Shown here: positions 1 to 13,103 of the stretch, piece after piece | How positions within the stretch are numbered: position 1 is the stretch's first letter | Layout: every line of letters begins with the position of its first letter | Origin: Pseudomonadota bacterium | GTDB lineage: Bacteria > Oederibacteriota > Muellerivitia > Muellerivitales > Muellerivitaceae | Assembly: GCA_021324075.1 (NCBI GenBank) | Contig: JAJPJW010000002.1 | Span: 1 to 50,848, forward strand | DNA: 50,848 nt | Reading direction: 5' to 3' | Notes under the pieces: model-generated | What the model saw: only the letters and a program-made list of their open reading frames with translations | The model's database searches: none | Told to the model about the DNA's origin: nothing | Program-made: the position numbers and the translations under genes

Positions 1-2
1 CC

Positions 3-503
3 CGGGGTGCCCACATTTATTGCGAGATATCCGGTTACGGCTTGGGTATGGACGCCTTTCACATGACGTCGCCCCACCCGGAAGGGCAGGGAGCTTATGA
101 AAGCATCCTCCGGGCCATGGCCCAGGCCCGTTTGGCCCCGCCGGAAGTCGACTTCATCTCCGCGCACGGCACGGGAACTCCGGCCAACGACAAGACCGAA
201 TCCATCGCGATCAAAAAAGTATTCGGGGCGGACTGCCGGATCCCGGTGGACTCCATCAAGTCCATGATCGGCCATACAATGGGGGCGGCCAGCGCCATCG
301 AAGCCGCCATGACCTGCCTATCCCTGGACCGCGGACTTATACTGCCGACCATGAATTGGGAAACGGCGGATGAGAACTGCATCGCCGATTGCGTGCCCAA
401 CCAGTCCCGCCCTTTCAAGGCGCAAGTGGCGCTGTCCAACTCCTTTGCTTTCGGCGGCAACACCTCCTGCCTGGTCCTTTCCAAAAAGGAGGCCAACCGA
501 TGA
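3..503 (+). CDS. Beta-ketoacyl-ACP synthase, KAS I/II family (5' truncated)
   Basis: The C-terminal part of a condensing enzyme that elongates an acyl-ACP with malonyl-ACP. The reading frame is open from base 3, so the start lies outside the window. Both catalytic histidine motifs are present: HGTGT followed by ND and a Lys-Thr-Glu, and the later IGHTMGAASA motif. A typical FGG-N-T-S stretch comes near the end (SFAFGGNTS). The cysteine loop would be upstream and cannot be seen. The stop overlaps the next gene as ATGA, and the neighbours are an inactive-looking ketosynthase, ACP, dehydratase and reductase, so it belongs to a dedicated type II fatty acid or polyketide-like pathway. It could be FabF itself or an aryl-polyene type ketosynthase. 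Confidence 0.93.
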   Translation, partial: RGAHIYCEISGYGLGMDAFHMTSPHPEGQGAYESILRAMAQARLAPPEVDFISAHGTGTPANDKTESIAIKKVFGADCRIPVDSIKSMIGHTMGAASAIEAAMTCLSLDRGLILPTMNWETADENCIADCVPNQSRPFKAQVALSNSFAFGGNTSCLVLSKKEANR

Positions 504-1399
504 AACCCCTCTTTCTTTTGGGCAAGGGAGAAGCGCTTCTGGGCCGGGACGGCCTGACAATGGAAAGCCTGCCGATTGAGTTCAAAAAAACTTTTCCCGA
601 CCAGGATCCGAAATATATCGACAAGTTGTCCCAATTGGCGGGGATCGCGGCCGCCCGGGCCTTGAAGGAAAGCCCCCAGCCCCTGCCTGAAGAAGTAAGG
701 AAAGATTTCGCGGTGGTTGTCGGAACGGCTTTTGGGGCGGTGGACAGCACCATCGATTTCGACACCCAAGCCCTCGCCAAGGGTCCCAATGCGGTCAACC
801 CCATGGATTTCCCTAATACGGTGGCCAACGCGGCAGGAAGCCGGATCGGGATTTGGATGCAGCTCAAGGGACCCAATGTGACCCTGACCAACGGGGAAAC
901 GTCCCTCTTGGACGCGGCCGGTTTCGCCTTGCAGGGTTTTAACAGCGGCCTTTTCCAAGATTGTTTCCTCGGGGCGGCGGATAAGGCGCCCGATTTCCTC
1001 AAGCCCTCGGCGCTCCGGCATTCTTCCGCCGCCGAAATCAGGGAAGGGGCCTGTTTTTTCCGGGCCGCGGCTTCGGCCGAAGGAAGGGTTTTGGGACGCC
1101 TCACCGATTACTTTGCCCTGCAACTGACGCCGGACTTGGGCCTTCCCCAGGCCTTTCAAAGTCAGTTCGAAAGGTTATGGGAGGGGGTAGAATGGCTGGG
1201 CTGTCCGGAAGACACACCCTTCAAAAGCGGTTTTCCCCCAGGGCTGCCCCGGGCCTTTCCTGCACCGACGGTTCTGGAAGTAGGGCTTGGCGGTTTGGAA
1301 TCCCTGAACGCTTTCCTGGCCTCGCCTTTTTCCTGCGGGGTCGTCGCCGTGTTCTCAAAACCTGAAAGAAAAATATCTTTTGTTAAAATCGAAAAATAG
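500..1399 (+). CDS. Ketosynthase-like protein lacking the active-site Cys (chain-length-factor-like)
   Basis: A 299-residue protein with the fold of the N-terminal half of a beta-ketoacyl synthase: a VVVGTAFGAVDST stretch, then a FPNTVANAAGS region and a GPNVTLTNG segment. At the nucleophile-elbow position, where active enzymes carry Ala-Cys-Ala/Ser, this one reads TNGETS, so no acylatable cysteine is visible. No HGTxT or GHT histidine motif is seen either, and the protein is about 100 residues shorter than a full KAS. Such partners act with an active ketosynthase as chain-length factors or scaffolds. The start ATG overlaps the upstream ketosynthase stop, which supports a heterodimeric pair. 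The substrate is unknown. Confidence 0.85.
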   Translation: MKPLFLLGKGEALLGRDGLTMESLPIEFKKTFPDQDPKYIDKLSQLAGIAAARALKESPQPLPEEVRKDFAVVVGTAFGAVDSTIDFDTQALAKGPNAVNPMDFPNTVANAAGSRIGIWMQLKGPNVTLTNGETSLLDAAGFALQGFNSGLFQDCFLGAADKAPDFLKPSALRHSSAAEIREGACFFRAAASAEGRVLGRLTDYFALQLTPDLGLPQAFQSQFERLWEGVEWLGCPEDTPFKSGFPPGLPRAFPAPTVLEVGLGGLESLNAFLASPFSCGVVAVFSKPERKISFVKIEK

Positions 1400-1404
1400 G
1401 AGAA

Positions 1405-1659
1405 ATGGATATGGATTCGGTACAAATCAAGTCGAAGATCAAGGAAGTGGTCGGGGGAATGTTTGATATGGAGCCCGGAACCGTCCCGGACTCCAAGCCC
1501 TTCACGCAAATGGCCAAGTACGACTCCATGCGGGCCTTGGAGTTCCTGGCCAAACTGGAAAATGAATTCAATGTCACCATCGACCCGGACCAACTGGCCA
1601 ATATGGCCACGGTGGAAAAGTCCGCACAGGTCATCGAGGGTTACCTGCATGCCCACTGA
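1405..1659 (+). CDS. Acyl carrier protein
   Basis: An 84-residue acidic carrier protein. The phosphopantetheine site is the Ser of YDSMRALEFL (Ser41 counted from 1405), a DSM variant of the usual DSL. The protein has the four-helix ACP pattern and ends near the next start, which lies inside this gene. A second ATG at 1411 has better spacing (8 nt) from the AGGAG at 1398-1402 and may be the true start. It would carry the growing chain between the ketosynthase pair, reductase and dehydratase, after loading by the phosphopantetheinyl transferase at 2814-3602. Confidence 0.92.
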   Translation: MDMDSVQIKSKIKEVVGGMFDMEPGTVPDSKPFTQMAKYDSMRALEFLAKLENEFNVTIDPDQLANMATVEKSAQVIEGYLHAH

Positions 1660-2101
1660 GGCGCCTTCGGGCGAAACGCCGGACCTTTCCTTCCTCCGGC
1701 AGCGCTTCCCGCTTTTGATGGTGGACAAGGTCCTTTCCTGGGAAAAGGGGAAGGAACTGCGCATCCTCAAGAATATTTCCGCGAACGACGTCCATTTCCC
1801 GGGCCATTTTCCCGGTTACCCGGTTTTCCCGGGTGTGTTGACCATCGAGTGCTTCGCCCAGGCGGCCTCCATCCTGATCCGGCTCACCGAAGGTTCCTTC
1901 GTGGAAGGCGTCTTTGACGCGATCGGTTCGGTCATGGACTTCCGTTTCCTGAAGCCGATTCTTCCCGGCGACCGGCTGGAAGTACACATGGTGATGACCA
2001 AGACCGTCGGGCTGAACCGCATGTTCGAGGGAAGGGGCTATGTGGCGGGGGAGGAAGTGGCCACGGGCAAGTTCCTGATCGGAAAGATGAAAATGCCATG
2101 A
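1649..2101 (+). CDS. fabZ: 3-hydroxyacyl-ACP dehydratase, FabZ family
   Basis: A 150-residue hot-dog fold dehydratase that removes water from 3-hydroxyacyl-ACP. The catalytic His lies in the HFPGYPVFPGV motif (His53) and the paired acid in TIECFAQAA (Glu67), as in FabZ. The ATG at 1649 overlaps the end of the ACP gene by 11 bases, and the stop overlaps the fabG start as ATGA, so translation is coupled. The residue pattern is clearly FabZ rather than FabA. The specific chain length is not evident. Confidence 0.93.
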   Translation: MPTEAPSGETPDLSFLRQRFPLLMVDKVLSWEKGKELRILKNISANDVHFPGHFPGYPVFPGVLTIECFAQAASILIRLTEGSFVEGVFDAIGSVMDFRFLKPILPGDRLEVHMVMTKTVGLNRMFEGRGYVAGEEVATGKFLIGKMKMP

Positions 2102-2817
2102 AAAAGGCCGTCATTTCGGGGGGATCTTCAGGAATCGGCAGGGGGCTGGTGGAGACTTTCGCCAGGGCCGGCTGGAAGGTCCACTTCACCTTTCATTCCA
2201 ACGAAGCCGCCGCCCGCGACATGGAACAGGGATGGGAAGGAAAGGCCAAGGCCCACCGCCTCGACGTGGCCGACCGGGAGGCCTGCGACCGCTTCTGCAA
2301 GGAAATCCTGGAAGAGGAAAAAAACGTCGACGTCCTTGTCAACAACGCGGGCATCACCAAGGACAAGCCGCTTTTTTCCATGCAGGATTCGGATTGGTCC
2401 GACGTGCTTCAAACCAACCTCTCGGGTGTTTTCCACCTGACCCGGCGTTTCGCCTTCGACATGTTGAAAAAGAAAAAAGGGCGGATCATCAACCTGTCGT
2501 CCATTTCGGGCATCCACGGCCTCCCCGGCCAGACCAATTATTCCGCCTCCAAGGCGGGCATCATCGGCTTCACCAAGGCCCTGGCCAAGGAAACGGCCGC
2601 CTTCGGCGTGACGGCCAATGTGGTGGCCCCGGGAGGGGTCGTGACACCCATGATCGAGAAATTGACGCCCCAGGCCAAGGAGGCCCTTCTCCAGGCCGTG
2701 CCGATGCGGCGCTTCTGCGAGGTGGAGGAAGTGGCCCGGGTGGTTTATTTCCTGGCGGAGGGCGCCCCGGATTACCTGAACGGGAGCGTCATCGTCCTGG
2801 ACGGCGGCGCCAGTTGA
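2098..2817 (+). CDS. fabG: 3-oxoacyl-ACP reductase, FabG/SDR family
   Basis: A 239-residue short-chain dehydrogenase. The nucleotide-binding GGSSGIG is at residues 8-14, NNAG occurs in the middle, a Ser lies near residue 134-135, and the catalytic Tyr148-x3-Lys152 is in NYSASKAG. It reduces 3-ketoacyl-ACP to the 3-hydroxyacyl form using NADPH (family knowledge). Its position after fabZ and before a phosphopantetheinyl transferase makes it part of the same acyl-chain cassette. A 3-hydroxyacyl product would be the expected substrate for the PhcB-like methyltransferase further down (inference). Confidence 0.93.
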   Translation: MKKAVISGGSSGIGRGLVETFARAGWKVHFTFHSNEAAARDMEQGWEGKAKAHRLDVADREACDRFCKEILEEEKNVDVLVNNAGITKDKPLFSMQDSDWSDVLQTNLSGVFHLTRRFAFDMLKKKKGRIINLSSISGIHGLPGQTNYSASKAGIIGFTKALAKETAAFGVTANVVAPGGVVTPMIEKLTPQAKEALLQAVPMRRFCEVEEVARVVYFLAEGAPDYLNGSVIVLDGGAS

Positions 2818-3602
2818 GGGGAACAGACCGCAAAGAACCCTGGACCCTCGGGAAAGAGGAGGTCCAAATCCACACCCTGCGGATGGATTGGGACCTTTTT
2901 CCAAACCCAGACGATGGCTTTCTCTATTTGCTGCAGCGGGAAGAAATGGGGAGATACCTGGAGTTTGAACTGAGGGAACGGCGCAGGGAATTTTTGTGGT
3001 CCCACTTATTGGTACGAAGGGTCCTGGCTTCCGTCCTCGGCCGATCCATGGAAGACTTGGATTTTGGTTACGAAAGCAATGGAAAGCCTTTTTTAAGTGA
3101 TTCGGACCTGCAATGGAATCTTTCCCATACGGAAGGCCTGGCCGCTTGTTCGATTTCTTACCAAAGGGTGGGAATTGACGTGGAAAAAATGAACCCCGAG
3201 AAAGAGCCGGCGAGGGACTGGAAGTTGTTGGCACGCCGTTTTTTTTCAGAAGATGAAAAGAAATACCTCTTTTCGCGGCCCTCCCCGGACCAAAAACGGA
3301 TTTTTTATGAGCTTTTTACCCTGAAAGAGGCTGCCGCCAAGGCCGATGGAAAGGGCTGGGGACGGTCTTTCGGACGGCCTTCCCCACCCCTGGCCCCGGC
3401 TGGAAAATCCTCCACCGGCAGCTGGGAATATTTGAGAGAATTTTTGGAGCCCGGCGGTTACTATTTGGCCCATGCGGCTGAAAAAGGGAACCAGCCGGCC
3501 CGATACCGTTTTTTTGAATGGACGGAAGCAACCTTGAGGAAACTTTTAACGCCGCGTTCGCCGGCTTTGACGGAAGGGGTCTATGGCCATCTCCACGGGT
3601 AA
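2814..3602 (+). CDS. 4'-phosphopantetheinyl transferase, Sfp type
   Basis: Transfers the phosphopantetheine arm from CoA to carrier proteins, most likely the ACP encoded upstream. Visible Sfp motifs are a WNLSHTEGL segment, GIDVEKM with the metal-binding Asp, and a Phe-x6-LKEAAAK variant of the WxxKEA motif. The start is uncertain. The first ATG in frame (2883) would drop the N-terminal beta strand VQIHTLRM that aligns with other Sfp proteins, so I prefer a TTG at 2814 overlapping the fabG stop. The 3' end overlaps the methyltransferase start by 20 bases. A dedicated activator inside the operon argues that the pathway is self-contained. Confidence 0.88.
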   Translation: MRGTDRKEPWTLGKEEVQIHTLRMDWDLFPNPDDGFLYLLQREEMGRYLEFELRERRREFLWSHLLVRRVLASVLGRSMEDLDFGYESNGKPFLSDSDLQWNLSHTEGLAACSISYQRVGIDVEKMNPEKEPARDWKLLARRFFSEDEKKYLFSRPSPDQKRIFYELFTLKEAAAKADGKGWGRSFGRPSPPLAPAGKSSTGSWEYLREFLEPGGYYLAHAAEKGNQPARYRFFEWTEATLRKLLTPRSPALTEGVYGHLHG

Positions 3603-4998
3603 AGACACCTTTATCCTCTGCCGCAACAGCCAGGGAACGGAGTTTCGGGCCACCCTGCTGAGGCTGACACGCTACACGGTCGTCTTCGAGGTTTACAACC
3701 CCTACAGCATCCTCCAGCTGTCGGAAGTGTTGACGGACTTCCGCATGATCATGAACGACCGGATGGTTTATTCCGGCCGGGCCATCGTCAGCAACCTTGT
3801 CAACACGGGCATCCTCCTGGTCTGCGAGTGCACGCTGGAAGAGGATTGGCTGGACGTCGACATCTTCAGTTCCATTTACCAGAAGGACAAGCTCCAAAAC
3901 GAGTTCATGGAGTTCCTGAAGGAATGGGACAAGATCCGCATGGTGACCAACGAGTTCAAGGTGGTCATCGCCGACATGCAGACCTTCCTCATCGACATGC
4001 GCCGCTGGTTGGAACAGGTGGAACTGAGCATCCGGTCCGAACCCTCGGGGGACCGGAACCAACTGGAAAGGGACGCCATTCAAAAGCTGAAGGACCCCAT
4101 TACGCCCACGGTGGGGGATTTGTTTGAGCGTTTCGAAAGCATCACCGCCACCATCCCCGAAGACCTGCAGTCCATCCACCGCTCCTACAGCCGGCGGCAG
4201 ATCCATCCCATCCTGCTCTGCTCACCCTTCGTTTACCGCAGCTTCCAGAAGCCCCTGGGCTATGCGGGGGACTATGAGATGGTCAACATGATGCTGAGGG
4301 ACCCTTTCGAAGGGGGTTCCCTCTTCGCCAAAGTTGTCAATTTTTGGTTCATTGAGTCCCCACCTTGCGAAGCCCACCGCAACCGCATCAAGCATCTGGT
4401 CCGTCGGATGGTGGAGGAAACCGAAAAGGCCGCCCGTGAAAAAAGGGTACTCAGGGTCCTGGACATGGCCTGCGGCCCGGCGAAAGAAGTGCAGGAATTC
4501 CTGGCCCATGAGGAACTCAGCAACCACGCCCAGTTCGAGCTGCTGGATTTTAACGACGAAACCCTGCAATACACCGGCAAGACGCTGGAGGAGTTGAGGA
4601 AGAAGCACCACCGGATCACGCCGATCCAGATGGTGAAGAAATCGGTCAACCATATCCTCAAGGAAACCTTTAAACCCTCCACAGGGCCGCCTGAAAAAGA
4701 GTATGATTTCATCTATTGCGCCGGACTGTTCGACTACCTGGAAGACCGGATTTGTAAAAAGCTCATGGATTATTTTTATGAGCGCCTGGCGCCGGGGGGT
4801 CTCCTTCTGGCCACCAACGTCACGGCTCGAAACCCCCTGATCAACACCATGGAAAGCCTATTGGAATGGCACCTGATCTACCGGGACAAGGTAGGCATGG
4901 CGGTTTTGAGACCCGAGCAGGCGCCGGAAGGTTCCTGCGAAATTTCCTTAGAAGTGACAGGTATTAATGTTTTTCTCGAAGTGAGGAAACCCAAATGA
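3583..4998 (+). CDS. PhcB-like SAM methyltransferase with N-terminal PilZ-like region
   Basis: A 471-residue protein with two parts. Residues 1 to about 100 form a beta-rich region resembling degenerate PilZ domains, without a clear RxxxR plus D-x-S-x-x-G pair. The remainder is a class I SAM methyltransferase with motif I VLDMACGPA near residues 292-300 and a later FDYLEDR/LAPGG segment. The overall form matches the family annotated as extracellular factor 3-hydroxypalmitate methyl ester synthase (PhcB of Ralstonia). It sits between acyl-chain enzymes and a sensor kinase whose ATG overlaps its stop. The inferred role is methylation of a fatty-acid-like product to make a diffusible signal. The substrate is not shown by sequence. 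Confidence 0.8.
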   Translation: MAISTGKDTFILCRNSQGTEFRATLLRLTRYTVVFEVYNPYSILQLSEVLTDFRMIMNDRMVYSGRAIVSNLVNTGILLVCECTLEEDWLDVDIFSSIYQKDKLQNEFMEFLKEWDKIRMVTNEFKVVIADMQTFLIDMRRWLEQVELSIRSEPSGDRNQLERDAIQKLKDPITPTVGDLFERFESITATIPEDLQSIHRSYSRRQIHPILLCSPFVYRSFQKPLGYAGDYEMVNMMLRDPFEGGSLFAKVVNFWFIESPPCEAHRNRIKHLVRRMVEETEKAAREKRVLRVLDMACGPAKEVQEFLAHEELSNHAQFELLDFNDETLQYTGKTLEELRKKHHRITPIQMVKKSVNHILKETFKPSTGPPEKEYDFIYCAGLFDYLEDRICKKLMDYFYERLAPGGLLLATNVTARNPLINTMESLLEWHLIYRDKVGMAVLRPEQAPEGSCEISLEVTGINVFLEVRKPK

Positions 4999-7646
4999 GC
5001 CAAAATCCGCTCGATCAACCTGAGATAAAGAAGGTTTACGACGACTATAACAAATCGGAAAGAAAGCGCCTTTTCAAGATCGTCTTCTGGTTCGCCTTTT
5101 TCGGCATGCCGGCCGGTATTTCCCTGGACCAGCAGGTTTACCCGGCTTACGTCCCCTATTTCCTCAAACTGCGGCTCTTCTCCTCGCTTTTAGTCACCCT
5201 GTTGCTTTGGGTTTATTACCGGCCTTGGGCGGCGCGCTTCGACCGGGCCCTTTTCATCCTCCTCCTGATGGTGCCCCAAGGCATCATCACCTGGATGATC
5301 TATTCCACCGAAGGCCCCCTTTCACCCTATTACGCGGGGCTCAACGTGGTGCTAGTGGCCTTTTGCATGCTGCTCCCCTGGACCTACCAGGAAACCCTCG
5401 TTTTCGCCGGGATCACCTTTATCGGCTACGTCACGGCCTGCATCGCGCACGGCGGCGCGGCCTTCAAAGGAATCTTCTTCAACAACGCCTATTTCGTCTT
5501 CCTGACCGCCACTTTCGCGGTGATCGGCAGTTATTTCAGCAACCGCCTGAGGGTGCAGGATTTCGTCAACCGCTTCGAACTGGACAAGAACCGGAAAATA
5601 CTGGAAGAAACCAACCAAAAGCTTGTGGAATTGGACCAGATGAAAAGCCAGTTCTTCGCCAATATCAGCCACGAATTGAGGACGCCACTGACGCTTTTGA
5701 TCGCCCCGCTGGAGGAGTTGATGCGCCAGTCCCCCCTGGACGAGCCCACCCGGGAAATCCTCAAACTGATGCAGGGAAACGCCATGAGGCTGCTCAAACT
5801 CATCAACGACCTTTTAGACCTGGCCAAACTGGACTCGGGCCGCATGCAAGTGCGAAGGGAACCGCTGGCCGTGGAGGAGTTCATCAAGGGCCTGGTCCAG
5901 TCGGTGCAGGGCGCGGCCAAGGACAAGAAGGTGCGGCTCTCCTCCAACGTCTCCAAGGAAGTTGGGACGGTGATGGCCGACGGGGACAAGCTGGAAAAGG
6001 TCATTCTGAACCTCCTGTTCAACTCCGTGAAATTCACCCCCGCGGGGGGGACGGTTGAATTATCCGCGGCCTCCCAGGACGGCGCCATGGTCCTTCAAGT
6101 GAAGGATACGGGGATGGGCATCTCCGAGAAGGATTTGCCGCACATCTTCGACCGCTTCTGGCAGGCCGATGCTTCGGCCCAACGGAAATACCAGGGAACG
6201 GGCATCGGTTTGTCCCTGGTCAAGGAACTCGTGGAAGTCCAAGGGGGTACGGTCAAGGTCGAAAGCCAGTTGGGGAAGGGCACGACGATGACCGTCCGGG
6301 TTCCCGTCGAAAAAAGCACGGCGTCCGTCCCCGGTGAACCGGCCGCCGCAAACGAAAAGGCCGCTGCAGATGAGGCCGGCAAGGCGGACCCGGCCGAATC
6401 GGCCGAATGGCTGCAAAAACTCTACCGTAGGGCCGAACTTTTCCCCGCCATGACCCCCTTGGCCGCCACCTTGCGGCCGGACAAATATGGAAGAGGGAAA
6501 AGACCCAAGATCCTGGTGGCCGACGATGAACCGGACATGCTGCGGTTCCTTAAGTCCCAATTGGAAAAACATTTTGAAGTGATCGAGGCCGTGGACGGCA
6601 ACCAGGCGATGGAAAAGGCCCGGCAGTTCCTGCCGGACCTGATCCTTTTGGACATGATGATGCCCGAAAAGGACGGGATCGAGGCCTGCAAGGAATTGCG
6701 GGGCTTGGTTTCCACCCAGGCCATCCCGGTGGTCCTGCTGACGGCCCGGGCGGACGATGAAACCAAGATGGCGGCCCTGGCGGCCGGGGCCAATGACTTC
6801 CTGACCAAGCCTTTTTCCACCACCGAACTGCATATCCGGGTGAAAAACCTCATCGAATTCCACCAATTGCAGATGGATTTGGCCCGTCAAAAAAATGCAC
6901 TAGAATCGGCACTTGAACAGTTGAAAGAAACGGAGGGACAACTGGTTCAAAATGAAAAGATGGCTTCCCTCGGGCGTCTCAGCGCGGGTATCATCCACGA
7001 GATCAACAATCCCCTGAATTACGCCACTTCGGCCCTGCATCTTCTCAAGTTGCGCAAGGACAAGCTTCCGGAGGGGGAGAGGGAAAAATACGTGGAGATC
7101 GTTTCGGACATCGCCGAAGGGGTGGACAGGGTCCAAAGGATCGTCGCCGACCTGCGCACCTTCAGCCACCCCCATGCGGGAGGGAAAGACCTCTTTCCGC
7201 TGAAGGAGGTCCTCACCACCTCCCTGCAGTTCATGAGCCACGAGTTGAACGACAAAGTCCAATTGGAAATCCGGGTGCCGGAGGACCAAATGGTCATGGC
7301 CGACCGCAACAAACTGGTGCAGGTGTTCGTGAATCTCCTCCAAAACTCGGCCGACGCCCTGCAGACGAAGGATTGGAAGGGGGAGAAGCCTATGATTTCC
7401 ATCACGACCCGAACCGGTGACGGGAAGCTGTGGGTCAGCCTGCGGGACAACGGCACCGGCATCGCGCCCGAAGTCATGGACAAGATTTTCGACCCCTTTT
7501 TCACCACGAAGGATGTGGGGGAAGGGATGGGGTTGGGACTGAGCATTTGTTACAAGATTATCCAGGAACAAGGCGGGCAAATTTCCGTGAAAAGCGAGAA
7601 AGGTCAATTCACTGAATTTGTTTTGGAGCTTCCCTCCAAGGCTTGA
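4995..7646 (+). CDS. Membrane hybrid histidine kinase: TM-HisKA-HATPase-REC-HisKA-HATPase
   Basis: An 883-residue sensor. Residues about 25-185 hold roughly six hydrophobic segments, suggesting a membrane-embedded rather than periplasmic sensor. A short coiled coil leads to the first kinase (His226 in FFANISHELRTPL) with N and G boxes (NLLFNSVKFTP, DTGMGIS, GTGIGLSL). A receiver follows with phospho-acceptor Asp553 in LILLDMMMPEKDG, then a second kinase with His668 in GIIHEINNPLN and its own ATPase (GMGLGLSI). Two complete kinase modules around one receiver is unusual. The gene overlaps the methyltransferase and precedes a receiver protein by 20 bases, as expected for a PhcS-like sensor of the product (inference). 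Confidence 0.9.
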   Translation: MSQNPLDQPEIKKVYDDYNKSERKRLFKIVFWFAFFGMPAGISLDQQVYPAYVPYFLKLRLFSSLLVTLLLWVYYRPWAARFDRALFILLLMVPQGIITWMIYSTEGPLSPYYAGLNVVLVAFCMLLPWTYQETLVFAGITFIGYVTACIAHGGAAFKGIFFNNAYFVFLTATFAVIGSYFSNRLRVQDFVNRFELDKNRKILEETNQKLVELDQMKSQFFANISHELRTPLTLLIAPLEELMRQSPLDEPTREILKLMQGNAMRLLKLINDLLDLAKLDSGRMQVRREPLAVEEFIKGLVQSVQGAAKDKKVRLSSNVSKEVGTVMADGDKLEKVILNLLFNSVKFTPAGGTVELSAASQDGAMVLQVKDTGMGISEKDLPHIFDRFWQADASAQRKYQGTGIGLSLVKELVEVQGGTVKVESQLGKGTTMTVRVPVEKSTASVPGEPAAANEKAAADEAGKADPAESAEWLQKLYRRAELFPAMTPLAATLRPDKYGRGKRPKILVADDEPDMLRFLKSQLEKHFEVIEAVDGNQAMEKARQFLPDLILLDMMMPEKDGIEACKELRGLVSTQAIPVVLLTARADDETKMAALAAGANDFLTKPFSTTELHIRVKNLIEFHQLQMDLARQKNALESALEQLKETEGQLVQNEKMASLGRLSAGIIHEINNPLNYATSALHLLKLRKDKLPEGEREKYVEIVSDIAEGVDRVQRIVADLRTFSHPHAGGKDLFPLKEVLTTSLQFMSHELNDKVQLEIRVPEDQMVMADRNKLVQVFVNLLQNSADALQTKDWKGEKPMISITTRTGDGKLWVSLRDNGTGIAPEVMDKIFDPFFTTKDVGEGMGLGLSICYKIIQEQGGQISVKSEKGQFTEFVLELPSKA

Positions 7647-7666
7647 GGTGAAGAAGGAGAACACAT

Positions 7667-8929
7667 ATGGATTCGTTTTATGACTATAAAAAACATTTCA
7701 TCCTTTACGTGGACGACGAGGAAAAGTCCCTCAAGTACTTCCGGGAAACTTTCGGAGAAAAATTTTCCGTTCTAACCGCCTCCAACGCGGATGAGGGTTT
7801 CCGGATCCTCAAGGAACGCCAGGATCAAATGGCGATCCTAATGACCGACCAGCGCATGCCGGGGGAAAAGGGCATCCAGCTCCTGGAAAAAACGCGGCAG
7901 TTGAACCCGCGGATCCTGCGCGTTTTGGCGACGGCTTATTCTGACCTCGAGACGGCCATCGAATCGGTCAATACGGGGGCCATTTATAAATATGTCACCA
8001 AACCCTGGGACATCCCCCAGTTGGAAGTCACCTTGAAAAGGGGACTGGAATTTTTCATGGTCCAGTCCGAAAGGGACCACCTCTTAAGGGAAAAGATGTC
8101 CGTTTTGTACAACGTCATGCTGACCGACCGGATTTTAAGCCTGGGTGTGCTGGCGGCGGGATTAAGCCACCATATCCGGAATTCCATGGTGGCGATCAAG
8201 ACTTTCCTCGATTTGGCGCCCAAAAAAATGGAAGAAGAAAATCTCGACCTGGCCCAGCTCCGCAATCCCGACTTTTGGAAGGATTATTACCAAAAGGTCC
8301 AAGGCCAAATGGACAAGGTGGTCAACCTCCTGGGCGACCTTTGGGAATCCTCCGAAAAGAACGAGATCGACCTGTCGGAGAAGATCCAGATCCACAAGGT
8401 CCTTGGAGAGGCGGTGGCCTTGGTAAAGCCTGAACTGGACAAAAAGGCCATTACGATCGAAAACCTTGTTCCGGCTTCCCTCCCCGAGATGAAAGCCGAC
8501 AAGAAAAGATTCCAACGCCTTTTTGAATTGTTGCTGCGGGATGAGGTTTCAGCCCTTGGGGACAAGGGAAAACTGAAGTTTACGGCGAAGGTGATCGGCC
8601 CCAAGAACGGTCCCGCCGAAGTCCAGATCGAACTGGAGGACGACGGGCCGGGACTTCCGCAAGACGCCTTACGGGCCTTGTTCGACCCTTTCTTCACACG
8701 GAGCGGAAGCCCGCAAGAGTTCGGCATTTACCTGATGACCTGCTTCTTTATCGTTTATCACCACGGGGGCAAAATTTCCGCGAAAAGCCTGGGGGGGAGG
8801 GGCAATGTTTTCACCCTGGTTTTCCCCTTGGAGACGCAGGCTAAAGCGGCCTTGGCCGAGGAAAAAGACCTGATGAGCAAGGTTTTGATCAATGAATCCT
8901 TATGGGAAAAGTTATTGGCGGGGAATTAG
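7667..8929 (+). CDS. Response regulator with C-terminal degenerate histidine kinase module (PhcR/PhcQ-like)
   Basis: A 420-residue protein. The N-terminal receiver has DDEE near residues 17-20, phospho-acceptor Asp61 in MTDQRMPGEKG, and a TAYSDLETAI/YKYVTKPWD pattern typical of receivers in Phc-type and HD-GYP-related systems. The C-terminal part has a dimerisation-like helix with LSHHIRN (His168) and a HATPase-like region. The ATPase looks impaired: the N-box position reads LLLRDEVSAL without its Asn, and the glycine-rich lid is replaced by SPQEFGIYL, although DDGPGL remains. It has a good ribosome site (GAAGGAG) and is the last gene before a terminator. Likely output partner of the preceding hybrid kinase. 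Confidence 0.85.
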   Translation: MDSFYDYKKHFILYVDDEEKSLKYFRETFGEKFSVLTASNADEGFRILKERQDQMAILMTDQRMPGEKGIQLLEKTRQLNPRILRVLATAYSDLETAIESVNTGAIYKYVTKPWDIPQLEVTLKRGLEFFMVQSERDHLLREKMSVLYNVMLTDRILSLGVLAAGLSHHIRNSMVAIKTFLDLAPKKMEEENLDLAQLRNPDFWKDYYQKVQGQMDKVVNLLGDLWESSEKNEIDLSEKIQIHKVLGEAVALVKPELDKKAITIENLVPASLPEMKADKKRFQRLFELLLRDEVSALGDKGKLKFTAKVIGPKNGPAEVQIELEDDGPGLPQDALRALFDPFFTRSGSPQEFGIYLMTCFFIVYHHGGKISAKSLGGRGNVFTLVFPLETQAKAALAEEKDLMSKVLINESLWEKLLAGN

Positions 8930-9052: not shown

Positions 9053-10177
9053 TTGAGTCAGATTGAACTTCTTCAAACCTTGTATCTTTTACTCCCGGTT
9101 GACGGCAGATCCGAGCCCGATTTTAACCTGTTAGGAAAGCTTCTCCTCCAAAAACTCGGCGTACAGAAGGCCCTTTTTGTTTTCCGGGAACCGGATGGAT
9201 TAAAGTCCGGCGACGGGAAAAAAGCCTTTCCTCCCAAAATCCAGAAGCTCATTCAAGCCCAATTCAACCGTTCTTTCCGGCCGTGGTTGTCCCTCCCCAA
9301 GAGGAATTTTCCCTGGCTCGGCTTTTGGCCGGTCGTGATCGAAGATGATTGGATCGGATTTTACGCCTTGGGGATGAAGGAGGGCGGGAAAGGTTTGAGC
9401 ACGGAAGAATCCCAAATGATGGCGCTTTTGGCCGACCGGACCGGTTGGTGCCTGGAAAGGCGGCGTCTGCGCGACTACCTTGAAAAAGCCGAACGTGAAT
9501 CCGCCTTGGGTTTTTTATCCGCCGCCATGATCCATGAAATCCGAAATCCACTGGCCGCGTTGAGCGCTTTAGCCCAACTTTTGCCCCAAAAAAAGAAGGA
9601 TGGGGATTTCATGGAGTCCTTCGAACGGCTTATGCTCCGGGAGACGGGCCGTTTATCCGATTTAACGGAAAATTTTCTCGGGTTTTTGAAACCAGCGGAG
9701 GGAAAAGCGGCTTCCATTGATTTTTCCAATGTGGTGGCCCAGACAGTGGATTTGTTAAAGCCCCTTTTGACCGTTAAAAGGGTCAAGTTGCGGATGAACA
9801 CGAATCCCGGCCTTGTTTTGACGGGCGACGAGCCACAAATTCGGAGCCTCGTTTTGAACCTTATGAAGAATGCCTTGGAATCGGCAAACCTAGGGGGGCT
9901 GGTCGAGGTTTCAACGGCTTGGCGACCGCGTTCAACCCATGGGGCCTCCGCGGGAATAGAATTTAAGGTCAAAAACGACGGAACCGGAATTTCCAAGGAG
10001 AACTTGGGAAAGATTTTCTCCCCCTATTTTTCATCGAAGGAAAAGGGCCTCGGTTTGGGCTTGGCCATCTGTCAAAAAATCGTTGAAAACCACCATGGAA
10101 AGATCCAGGCGGGTTCTTCGGGCCGGAGCACCATATTCCAGGTATTCCTTCCGGTTGTTGGTAAGAAAAACCCTTGA
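9053..10177 (+). CDS. Soluble histidine kinase (NtrB-like)
   Basis: A 374-residue kinase with no obvious membrane segment. The first 140 residues look like a divergent GAF-type sensor. They are followed by HisKA with His161 in MIHEIRNPLAALSAL and a HATPase domain with NLMKNALES, NDGTGIS and GLGLGLAICQK boxes, all intact. The start is TTG with GGGGAG six bases upstream. A receiver gene follows 99 bases downstream and is the likely partner. The signal is unknown. Confidence 0.87.
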   Translation: MSQIELLQTLYLLLPVDGRSEPDFNLLGKLLLQKLGVQKALFVFREPDGLKSGDGKKAFPPKIQKLIQAQFNRSFRPWLSLPKRNFPWLGFWPVVIEDDWIGFYALGMKEGGKGLSTEESQMMALLADRTGWCLERRRLRDYLEKAERESALGFLSAAMIHEIRNPLAALSALAQLLPQKKKDGDFMESFERLMLRETGRLSDLTENFLGFLKPAEGKAASIDFSNVVAQTVDLLKPLLTVKRVKLRMNTNPGLVLTGDEPQIRSLVLNLMKNALESANLGGLVEVSTAWRPRSTHGASAGIEFKVKNDGTGISKENLGKIFSPYFSSKEKGLGLGLAICQKIVENHHGKIQAGSSGRSTIFQVFLPVVGKKNP

Positions 10178-10276: not shown

Positions 10277-10861
10277 ATGGCGACCAAGAACATCCCTATT
10301 CTCATCCTTGAAGATGACCCCGCTTTCCGAGACCGCTTGAATGGCGTCTGCGCTGGGATTGGAAAAACCTGGGTGGTCGGCGAAATCGACAAGGCTTTGG
10401 GGTTACTAGTCCGACAATCCTTCCGGATTTTGCTTTTGGATTGGAATTTGATCCAAACCGATCCTTCTTCCTTCATCCTCGCCATCAACAGTTTCCAGCA
10501 AAATGCCAGCCGTATCGCCTTGTTCAAGTTTCCCCAGCTCAATCCCGTCATTTCGGCCATGAAAACAGGGATGAGCGACGTTCTTTGGACGGGCCAGACC
10601 CCGGAAGCGTTGAAGGCCAAAATCGAGGAATCGCTTTCCCAGACGAAACCGGCCCCCTTCGTCCATTCCTCGGTCTCCCGATTGGCCGAATCCTTGGCCG
10701 AAAAGGCAGTTGAGAAGAAAATGTCCTTTTCCAAGGCCCGCAAGGAATTTTCCAAGACCTTCCTCTTTCAAGTCCTGGGGCAAAAGAAAATGCGCCGTTC
10801 CCAGCTTGCCAGCTTGATGAACGTCAGCACCCGCACGCTTCACCGCCATTTGTCCGCCTGA
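10277..10861 (+). CDS. Response regulator, divergent receiver with Fis-like C-terminal HTH
   Basis: A 194-residue protein. The receiver half has an acidic cluster LEDDP (residues 11-15) and phospho-acceptor Asp55 in LLLDWNLIQ. The conserved Thr and Lys positions are hard to place, so the domain is divergent. The last 25 residues form a Fis-type helix-turn-helix (RRSQLASLMNVSTRTLHRHL), as at the end of NtrC proteins, but no AAA+ sigma-54 domain lies between. It is probably a DNA-binding partner of the kinase at 9053-10177, from which it is separated by an AT-rich gap with possible promoter sequence. Confidence 0.82.
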   Translation: MATKNIPILILEDDPAFRDRLNGVCAGIGKTWVVGEIDKALGLLVRQSFRILLLDWNLIQTDPSSFILAINSFQQNASRIALFKFPQLNPVISAMKTGMSDVLWTGQTPEALKAKIEESLSQTKPAPFVHSSVSRLAESLAEKAVEKKMSFSKARKEFSKTFLFQVLGQKKMRRSQLASLMNVSTRTLHRHLSA

Positions 10862-11045
10862 ATTACGGGCAAACCAATCAATATCCAATTTTTGTCATAA
10901 ATCTTAGGAAGCTTTTGTTTCTCCAAAATGCCTAATTTATGACCTCTTCATTCCACATCAACTTAACCCATAGTTAAACCTGAAACATTCGGGTTCCGAA
11001 ATGATAAAATCGGAGAACTCACATTCCACCTTTCCGGGAGGCTTC

Positions 11046-13103
11046 ATGCGAGGGTGCAAAAAAAACTTAGCCTTTTTAAGTCTGATTTTTTGTTCCTTTT
11101 GTTTTTCCCCTGCCGGCGCCCAAGTCCCCAATCCTTTCCCAACGCCGTCGCCGACTCCCTCGCCGACGCCTTTAGCGACTTCCAACGGCCCGATGAGTTC
11201 ACTGAAAAAAATGAGCCTCGAGGAATTGATGAATTTGGATGTCACCTCCGTTTCCAAACAACCCGAACCCTTTGGGCAGGCGCCCGCGGCCATCAACGTT
11301 ATAACGAACGACGCCATCCGCAGGTCAGGCGCCTCCAGTATCCCGGAAGCTTTGCGACTGGCGGACAATCTTGAAGTGGCGAAAGCCTCCTCTTCCGGCT
11401 GGGACATCACTGCCAGGGGATTTAACACGGGCCTGGCGAATAAGCTTCTGGTGCTGATGGACGGCAGGACCCTCTACTCGCCCCTTGACTCCGGCGTATT
11501 TTGGAACGTTCAGGATTACCTGCTGGAGGACATCGACCGGATCGAGGTCGTCAGCGGCCCGGGAGGAACTTTGTGGGGCGCCAACGCGGTCAACGGCGTC
11601 ATCAACATCACCAGCAAGGATGCCAAGGACACGCAGGGCGCCTACGTGGAAGGCGGCGGCGGCACCCAACCCCAGGATTTCGGCGGCATCCGTTATGGCG
11701 GCAAATTGGACGCGGATGTTTATTACCGTTTCTACGGGAAATATTTCGATGGGGCCAATGAAGTGTTGGTGGATGGGAGCAACGCCGGGGATCCCTGGAG
11801 GATGGGCCAGGGCGGGTTTAGGATCGATGACGAGGGCGATTCCCAAAACCACTTCACCCTCCAAGGCGACATCTATGACAGCGCCGTCAGTTCCACGGCG
11901 GGAGACGGTGAATCGGCCGGCGGGAACGTCCTGGGGCGGTGGTCACACAATATCTCGGCAGACTCGGACCTCAGCCTTCAGCTGTATTACGACCACACCT
12001 ATTTCAACGCCCCCAAGACACAGGCCCATTTGGGGCCTTTCGTTTCCGCGCCGGCCGGCGTTTTCGCCGACAGCCTGGAAACCTACGACTTGGACTTCCA
12101 GCATCATTTTCACTGGGACGGCGCCAACAACTTCATCTGGGGTTTAGGATGCCGCATCACCCACGACTTGGTCACGCCGGCCCCTTCCTTGACCTTTCAA
12201 CCGACCCTCTTGGACCAGGGTTTGTTCAGTTTTTTTGCACAGGATGAGTTCGAATTGGGAAACGACCTTTTCTTGACCGCGGGCAGCAAGGTTGAGCACA
12301 ACGACTACACGGGTTATGAATTTGAACCCAGCGGTCGCTTGAAATGGAACCTGGCGGAAGCCCAGATGGTTTGGGCCGCGGTTTCCCGGGCGGTCCGCAT
12401 GCCTTCGCGCATCGACCACGACCTCGAGGAGCCGACGCCGAACCTGGTCCCGTTCGGAATCAAGGAACTTTTAATCGGGGGATCGGACTTTGAATCGGAA
12501 ACGGTGGTGACTTATGAGCTGGGCTACCGGGCCCAGTTGGCCAAGGAGTTCTCCACTTCCATTTCGACCTTTTTCAACAACTACAGTGATATTCGCAGCA
12601 CCAGCTCGACCCCCTCCGGGCCTCTCGGCCTCCTTCCCCTCTATTTCCAAAACAACCTCGAGGCCCAGACAGGCGGCGTCGAATGGACCGTCGATTACCA
12701 AGTCCTGGAAGGTTGGCGGATGCACGCCGGCTATGATCTGCTCCAGGAAAATGTCTGGGTCAAGCCCGGCCAAACCGACTTGAACAACGCACTCAATGAA
12801 ACCGCCGACCCGAAAAACCAGGTCTTTGTCCGTTCCTCGATGGACCTGCCGGGGGACCTGGAACTGGACCCCGCCTTTCGATGGGTCGACTCATTGACCT
12901 ACAACTACAACGCCGGCGTGCCGGGAGTCGTCCCCAGTTACGCCGAATTGGATCTGCGCCTGGCCTGGCATCCCATTAAGGATATTGAGATTTCCGTCAC
13001 GGGCCAGAATCTCCTGCACGACTATCACCTTGAATACGCAGCAGGGGGCCCGTTTGAGGAAATCCAACGAAGCGTCTACGGGAAGCTCGCGTGCCGGTTC
13101 TAG
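11046..13103 (+). CDS. TonB-dependent outer-membrane receptor
   Basis: A 685-residue receptor for an unidentified ligand. A signal peptide ends at about residue 25, followed by a Pro/Ser/Thr repeat linker (27-44), a TonB-box-like VTSVSKQ (66-72) and a plug domain (about 75-192, with NKLLVLMDGR and GPGGTLWGANAVNGVINI). The rest is a beta barrel ending in the aromatic CRF typical of outer-membrane proteins. I chose ATG 11046, which has GGGAGG just upstream, over an upstream in-frame ATG at 11001. The plug sequence resembles receptors found next to YfiR and CHASE8 kinases, which is the case here: the next gene overlaps it. Confidence 0.92.
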   Translation: MRGCKKNLAFLSLIFCSFCFSPAGAQVPNPFPTPSPTPSPTPLATSNGPMSSLKKMSLEELMNLDVTSVSKQPEPFGQAPAAINVITNDAIRRSGASSIPEALRLADNLEVAKASSSGWDITARGFNTGLANKLLVLMDGRTLYSPLDSGVFWNVQDYLLEDIDRIEVVSGPGGTLWGANAVNGVINITSKDAKDTQGAYVEGGGGTQPQDFGGIRYGGKLDADVYYRFYGKYFDGANEVLVDGSNAGDPWRMGQGGFRIDDEGDSQNHFTLQGDIYDSAVSSTAGDGESAGGNVLGRWSHNISADSDLSLQLYYDHTYFNAPKTQAHLGPFVSAPAGVFADSLETYDLDFQHHFHWDGANNFIWGLGCRITHDLVTPAPSLTFQPTLLDQGLFSFFAQDEFELGNDLFLTAGSKVEHNDYTGYEFEPSGRLKWNLAEAQMVWAAVSRAVRMPSRIDHDLEEPTPNLVPFGIKELLIGGSDFESETVVTYELGYRAQLAKEFSTSISTFFNNYSDIRSTSSTPSGPLGLLPLYFQNNLEAQTGGVEWTVDYQVLEGWRMHAGYDLLQENVWVKPGQTDLNNALNETADPKNQVFVRSSMDLPGDLELDPAFRWVDSLTYNYNAGVPGVVPSYAELDLRLAWHPIKDIEISVTGQNLLHDYHLEYAAGGPFEEIQRSVYGKLACRF

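Follow-up and report, generated by a model that had tools for sequence, protein, structure and literature searches.

In the Ralstonia solanacearum complex, the genes phcB-phcS-phcR-phcQ support quorum sensing with 3-hydroxy fatty acid methyl esters. To our knowledge, Phc-type signalling has been studied almost solely in Ralstonia and its close relatives. The published layout of the operon comprises phcB (464-468 aa), phcS, phcR and phcQ (336-337 aa) (PMC8578825). An evolved Ralstonia line in which Arg22 of PhcB is changed to Cys shows reduced responsiveness to cell density (PMC6989110), and the kinase histidine of PhcS is His230 (PMC11960443).

Other described systems build acyl chains with a ketosynthase (KS) and a partner subunit (CLF). 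Highly reducing type II systems, which combine KS-CLF with KR and DH enzymes, make polyenes (PMC10698177). In Kuenenia, the cluster kuste3603-3606 encodes an ACP, FabZ, FabF and a non-canonical FabF, and these are candidate ladderane genes (PMC4790861). The kuste3606 protein carries Val at the Cys position, and ladderane clusters feature radical SAM and phytoene-desaturase-like genes (PMC2649909).

A nine-gene operon at a contig edge

The stretch of DNA analysed here (the window; 50,848 nucleotides) is contig C111 of a candidate division FCPU426 MAG (3.57 Mb, 228 contigs). Nine genes on the same strand form an operon at positions 3-8929 (Table 1), in the order KS, Cys-less KS partner, ACP, FabZ, FabG, phosphopantetheinyl transferase (PPTase), methyltransferase (MT), membrane hybrid kinase (HK) and receiver-kinase (RRHK). 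Successive intergenic gaps are -3, +5, -11, -4, -4, -20, -4 and +20 nt, and 123 nt separate the end of the operon from the next gene, across a stem-loop that was overlooked by a consensus terminator scan with a loop limit of 8.

Table 1. Genes of the operon and the stem-loop that follows it, with window positions.
Feature	Positions	Strand	Evidence
Ketosynthase (KS), C-terminal 166 aa	3-502	+	Pfam Ketoacyl-synt_C (E 1.7e-33); N-terminal part off contig
Cys-less, shortened KS partner (CLF-like), 299 aa	500-1399	+	ketoacyl-synt N domain (E 1.5e-7), no C domain
Acyl carrier protein (ACP)	1405-1659	+	PP-binding (E 3.4e-8); YDSM serine site
FabZ-like dehydratase	1649-2101	+	NCBIfam FabZ (E 5e-31, slightly below cut-off); HFPG...PGVLTIE
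FabG-like ketoreductase	2098-2817	+	3oxo_ACP_reduc (E 1.6e-79); S...YxxxK
4'-phosphopantetheinyl transferase (PPTase), HetI/Sfp type	2814-3602	+	ACPS (E 5.9e-16), AASDHPPT_N (E 1.2e-7)
PhcB-like SAM methyltransferase (MT), 471 aa	3583-4998	+	N-terminal six-strand beta domain, helical linker, class I MT fold
PhcS-like membrane sensor kinase (HK)	4995-7646	+	Pfam; about six TM helices (estimate)
PhcR/PhcQ-like receiver plus kinase protein (RRHK), 420 aa	7667-8929	+	Response_reg, HATPase_c, weak HisKA (Pfam)
Terminator-like stem-loop	8960-8988	+	8 bp stem (arms GAAGGGCC/GGCCCTTC), 9-nt loop, then TTTT; read from sequence

A preliminary description of this DNA had named these nine genes and proposed that they overlap or nearly touch and end in one terminator. 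All nine are present and co-directional, with only the 5' end of the KS gene missing at the contig edge, and the gaps of at most 20 nt together with the stem-loop and its T4 tract bear out the proposed arrangement. The partner subunit indeed lacks the KS Cys, but it is also shortened and without a C-terminal KS domain. A search for the same gene order, which the description had proposed, is answered by a relative (G001) that holds all nine genes in the window order, plus one extra SDR gene before the MT gene.

Contig C227 of the same genome ends in a near-full KS (400 aa) with the active-site Cys (SNACASG). The last 450 nt of this KS (end region of L006:1-1201) share 87% nucleotide identity with window positions 1-450, and the mismatches by codon position (9/5/45) fall mostly on third positions. 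Judged from this pattern, the C227 KS is either a variant from another strain or a second copy, and is kept under purifying selection. Because identity across the overlap is only 87%, C227 was set aside as a same-strain continuation of the window. Upstream of its KS lie a divergent pirin gene and cytochrome oxidase genes, and no acyl genes. Since the cassettes of two relatives (G001 and G004) likewise begin with KS, little has likely been lost beyond the window edge.

The signalling genes resemble a phc-type operon

Homology to the phc system was judged with Paraburkholderia graminis proteins as a proxy, together with published Ralstonia lengths and positions, rather than with Ralstonia sequences. 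The P. graminis row used (pPHS1_P) consists of an MT (468 aa), an ATP-binding kinase (445 aa), a receiver (134 aa) and a regulator (344 aa); its order matches the published phc layout, and its second receiver is short. The window MT aligns end to end with the P. graminis MT (98% of length, 39% identity), and position 22, where the Ralstonia substitution lies, is Arg in both proteins. An AF2 model of the window MT (pLDDT 86) has class I methyltransferases as its top fold matches. A Foldseek search with this model returned only generic members of that class, with no pointer to substrate, and a PDB profile search with the MT alignment gave no match.

The HK is built from a membrane sensor, a HisKA-HATPase unit, a receiver and a second HisKA-HATPase unit. 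A profile of 77 HK sensor domains matches the P. graminis kinase with E 2.6e-42, and none of 200 shuffled sequences was matched. By this profile evidence, the sensor domain, beyond the kinase core, is homologous to that of the P. graminis kinase. The kinase histidine stands at position 226 in the window HK and 233 in P. graminis. RRHK shares 37% identity with the PhcQ-like regulator of P. graminis over 206 residues, and its Arg155 is aligned to Arg157 of P. graminis RR2; this site plausibly corresponds to Arg154 of PhcQ.

The window carries a full-length PhcB-type MT, an adjacent membrane sensor kinase and a PhcR-type receiver-kinase for which Pfam gives no match to a DNA-binding domain. The full-length MT with its Arg22, the sensor domain and the RRHK similarity together indicate that, by homology, the trio is a phcBSR-type signalling module. 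The PhcB-like MT and kinase relay of the preliminary description are therefore matched gene for gene by a phcB-phcS-(phcR/Q)-type operon, as represented by the P. graminis proxy. Shared with Ralstonia phc, again via the proxy, are the MT of about 470 aa, the membrane kinase, the receiver-kinase, the gene order, Arg22 and the sensor domain. In contrast, the window kinase is an HK-REC-HK fusion, an acyl cassette lies upstream and the host is not a betaproteobacterium. A separate PhcQ is absent from the operon, which has no further gene before the terminator, and no PhcA gene was found at the window locus.

The trio is widespread and often lies near a lipid porin

The distribution of the trio was surveyed in the best 80 of 483 MT matches among named genomes. 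Within this set, HK follows MT in 75 of the 78 testable loci; the exceptions are a locus with HK further downstream (L033), one with a weak HK match (L048) and one where the contig leaves <600 nt (L101). RRHK follows HK in every locus with enough downstream sequence (59/59). This recurrence, together with the nine-gene order kept in G001, indicates that the gene set is more than a chance association. Carriers belong to Verrucomicrobiota, Acidobacteriota, delta-type groups, Omnitrophota and FCPU426, and across them the trio is almost always found without acyl genes. Among the same best 80 of 483 matches, KS and CLF lie upstream of MT only in three FCPU426 loci (L032, L033 and L062). The trio therefore does not need a chain builder of its own.

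Of the 66 loci with more than 2 kb of upstream sequence, 40 have a FadL-type porin in the neighbourhood of MT, in most cases no more than about 2.5 kb away (for example, L038, L044, L045, L050, L058 and L109). Four of these porins were tested and match Pfam Toluene_X with E 1e-40 to 1e-55. An SDR gene is near MT in ten loci, in some of them beside the porin. FadL homologues help rhizobia to perceive long-chain AHLs (PMC5977203), so a FadL-type neighbour fits a hydrophobic signal, although it also fits lipid uptake. These neighbours suggest a lipid-like ligand. No FadL gene is present at the window locus, and none scores over the cut-off in the host genome.

What is new here is that a three-gene Phc core occurs in several other phylum-level groups, often near a lipid porin, and that the acyl cassette is specific to one lineage. 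Lipid signalling is thus predicted in Verrucomicrobiota and other groups, some of whose members are cultured (carriers include Brevifollis gellanilyticus and Pelagicoccus).

The acyl cassette resembles highly reducing type II gene sets

The residue at the KS Cys position of the partner subunit is Glu in the window and Gly, Asp and Gly in three relatives (four homologues in all). An AF2 model of the partner was discarded, as it rested on a four-row alignment and reached a pLDDT of 40. The FabZ-like protein retains its catalytic His and Glu, FabG is 82% identical in G001 and in the C203 contig of another bin (G007), and the PPTase carries the motifs GIDVEK and FTLKEAAAK. The preliminary description called this a self-contained pathway with its own ACP activator. 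Chain-building genes and a PPTase are indeed present, but "self-contained" is too strong, since the operon lacks FabD, FabH, an enoyl reductase and a starter enzyme, and the host genome has three PPTase-family genes, the one in the operon included.

Both KS and its partner match the PDB heteromer 9s5h best (chains B and C; chain C for the partner, E 3.2e-20). The 9s5h partner subunit has Val at the Cys position, like kuste3606, and this suggests that 9s5h is probably the Kuenenia kuste KS/partner pair of the anammox ladderane cluster; a literature search on 9s5h/9s5i found nothing. Similarities to kuste3603-3606 and 9s5h/9s5i thus include a KS with a Cys-less partner, an ACP and FabZ, with both subunits matching one heteromer. 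However, the window partner is truncated, and radical SAM and phytoene-desaturase-like genes are absent among the Pfam matches of the operon.

The genes of a highly reducing type II PKS are present, namely KS with Cys (seen on the C227 copy), CLF without Cys, ACP, KR and DH, and aryl-polyene clusters share this set. Unlike in those clusters, genes for an aryl starter or a second KS are absent from the window operon. No aryl starter, second KS or export genes lie beside KS-CLF in the G001 and G004 flanks or in the C227 flank, and the ApeI match (21.2) is below its cut-off (28.5), so an aryl-polyene cluster was ruled out. Distant KS and DH family matches also link the cassette to AmcE/F/G of cispentacin, in which AmcG is a degenerate KS partner, but these scores are far under the cut-offs and the operon has no AmcH-like adenylating enzyme. 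Possible products of the cassette are a polyene, a beta-hydroxy acid or, via a host enoyl reductase, a saturated chain.

The cassette is a late addition to the trio

Among 45 genomes of the FCPU426 phylum, the KS partner is found in four (G000, G001, G004 and the G007 bin), each time adjoining MT, and the cassette was not seen apart from the trio. MT itself is found in nine of the 45, at least four of which have no adjoining cassette (G003, G005, G006 and G008). In the MT tree, the MTs of the four cassette loci group in one clade (100/100 support), which is most simply explained by a single gain that preceded the divergence of these lineages. In G003, a RecB-like gene stands directly before MT, and in G001 and G004 the cassette lies between this gene and MT. 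The cassette is therefore a late, lineage-specific addition nested within the history of the trio. Its make-up varies: G004 has no FabG but has a thioesterase, with 1.7 kb between MT and HK, and G001 has the extra SDR gene. The association has been kept despite protein divergence to about 60-80% identity.

These findings bear on the overall interpretation in the preliminary description, that of an operon making and sensing its own acyl signal. Its kinship with phc stands, and the acyl genes travel with the trio in four FCPU426 loci, although the trio does not require the cassette. The description had named two observations that would speak against its reading, and neither was made: acyl and MT/kinase genes do occur together in related genomes, and upstream of the cassette in G001 and G004 are the RecB-like gene and others, with no aryl-polyene genes.

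The G007 bin contains both an MT start without the cassette (L031:3-200, C103) and an MT with the cassette (L023, C203). This duplication may reflect two copies, a strain mixture or misbinning. The binning of the G007 cassette is doubtful, because it lies on a small contig and another G007 contig has the cassette-less MT start.

The CLF profile also finds open frames of at least 409 aa in 18 of the 297 genomes from the phylum of L091, and no MT match lies near KS-CLF pairs in the four neighbourhoods read. Two loci of this phylum (L152 and L153) carry KS-CLF pairs with a longer CLF-like partner (>400 aa) and no MT match nearby.

A proposed pathway and its alternatives

We favour the reading, to which we assign a probability of roughly one half, that the window holds a lipid-signalling operon of the phcBSR type to which a dedicated type II KS-CLF chain builder was added. 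The PPTase would arm the ACP of the operon, KS and its Cys-less partner would elongate acyl-ACP, FabG would reduce and FabZ would dehydrate. Because the operon has no enoyl reductase, a beta-hydroxy or poly-unsaturated acyl chain would result. The PhcB-like MT would then methylate the carboxyl group of this chain, and the hydrophobic ester would exit the cell. Its sensor would be the six-helix PhcS-like kinase, from which phosphate would travel by way of that kinase's receiver and second kinase unit to the PhcR-like protein. That the operon may produce and perceive a methylated signal of a new kind is a reasonable inference. The product of the cassette need not be the MT substrate, however, as most genomes with the trio lack the cassette.

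A fuller version of this reading is offered tentatively. Here, a dedicated KS-CLF line, rather than host fatty acid synthesis, would build a private (for example, poly-unsaturated) acyl methyl ester that the PhcS-type kinase of the same operon would sense in a manner dependent on cell density. Such quorum sensing would be one elaboration of a Phc-type module that is widespread over several phyla, and where the operon of one FCPU426 lineage encodes its own chain-building line, the nature of the signal would be linked to the very operon by which it is sensed.

Alternatively, the product of the cassette might be a polyene or unusual fatty acid with a structural or protective role, as in a membrane lipid or a pigment, with the kinases serving only regulation and the MT capping or remodelling the lipid. 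KS-CLF-ACP-FabZ-FabG without an enoyl reductase is the polyene-making highly reducing type II gene set (PMC10698177), the KS/CLF pair is closest to 9s5h, which probably comes from the anammox ladderane cluster, and the FadL neighbours would suit lipid uptake too. We nevertheless regard this account as somewhat unlikely, because the MT and kinases have a much broader distribution than the cassette and are homologous to a signalling operon, and because the cassette has no starter, glycosyl or membrane-anchor genes. Retention of the Arg22 site and the full-length PhcB and PhcS-sensor homology argue against a further possibility, in which the trio senses exogenous or membrane fatty acids for metabolic or envelope control, the MT serves adaptation or detoxification, the cassette feeds the same local control and no cell-cell signalling takes place. 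This explanation, which draws on the FadL-type porins and SDRs near MT in Verrucomicrobiota and on a literature in which we found no cell-density evidence for carriers outside the betaproteobacteria, seems unlikely to us. Finally, an acquired acyl operon could sit upstream of the trio by chance and be joined to it by read-through only. The cassette does occupy the site where G003 has its RecB-like gene directly before MT, but the genes overlap (-4, -20 and -4 nt), the association has survived the divergence noted above and the cassette occurs nowhere else in the 45 genomes of the phylum, all of which makes a chance fusion highly improbable.

Genes beyond the terminator

A second kinase (window positions 9053-10177) and a divergent receiver protein (10277-10861) lie beyond the terminator, and homologues are found just past the trio in G005 and G006. 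After RRHK, the cassette-less G006 carries a sigma-54 activator with a receiver and a Fis-type HTH (L028:15418-16863); this is likely a transcriptional output that is absent from the window operon. A receiver-bearing ORF occupies the same position in G005 (L029:3547-4878). Judged by eye, TonB-dependent receptor-like ORFs are present downstream of the signalling genes in the window (11001-13103) and on C227 (L006:12607-14712).
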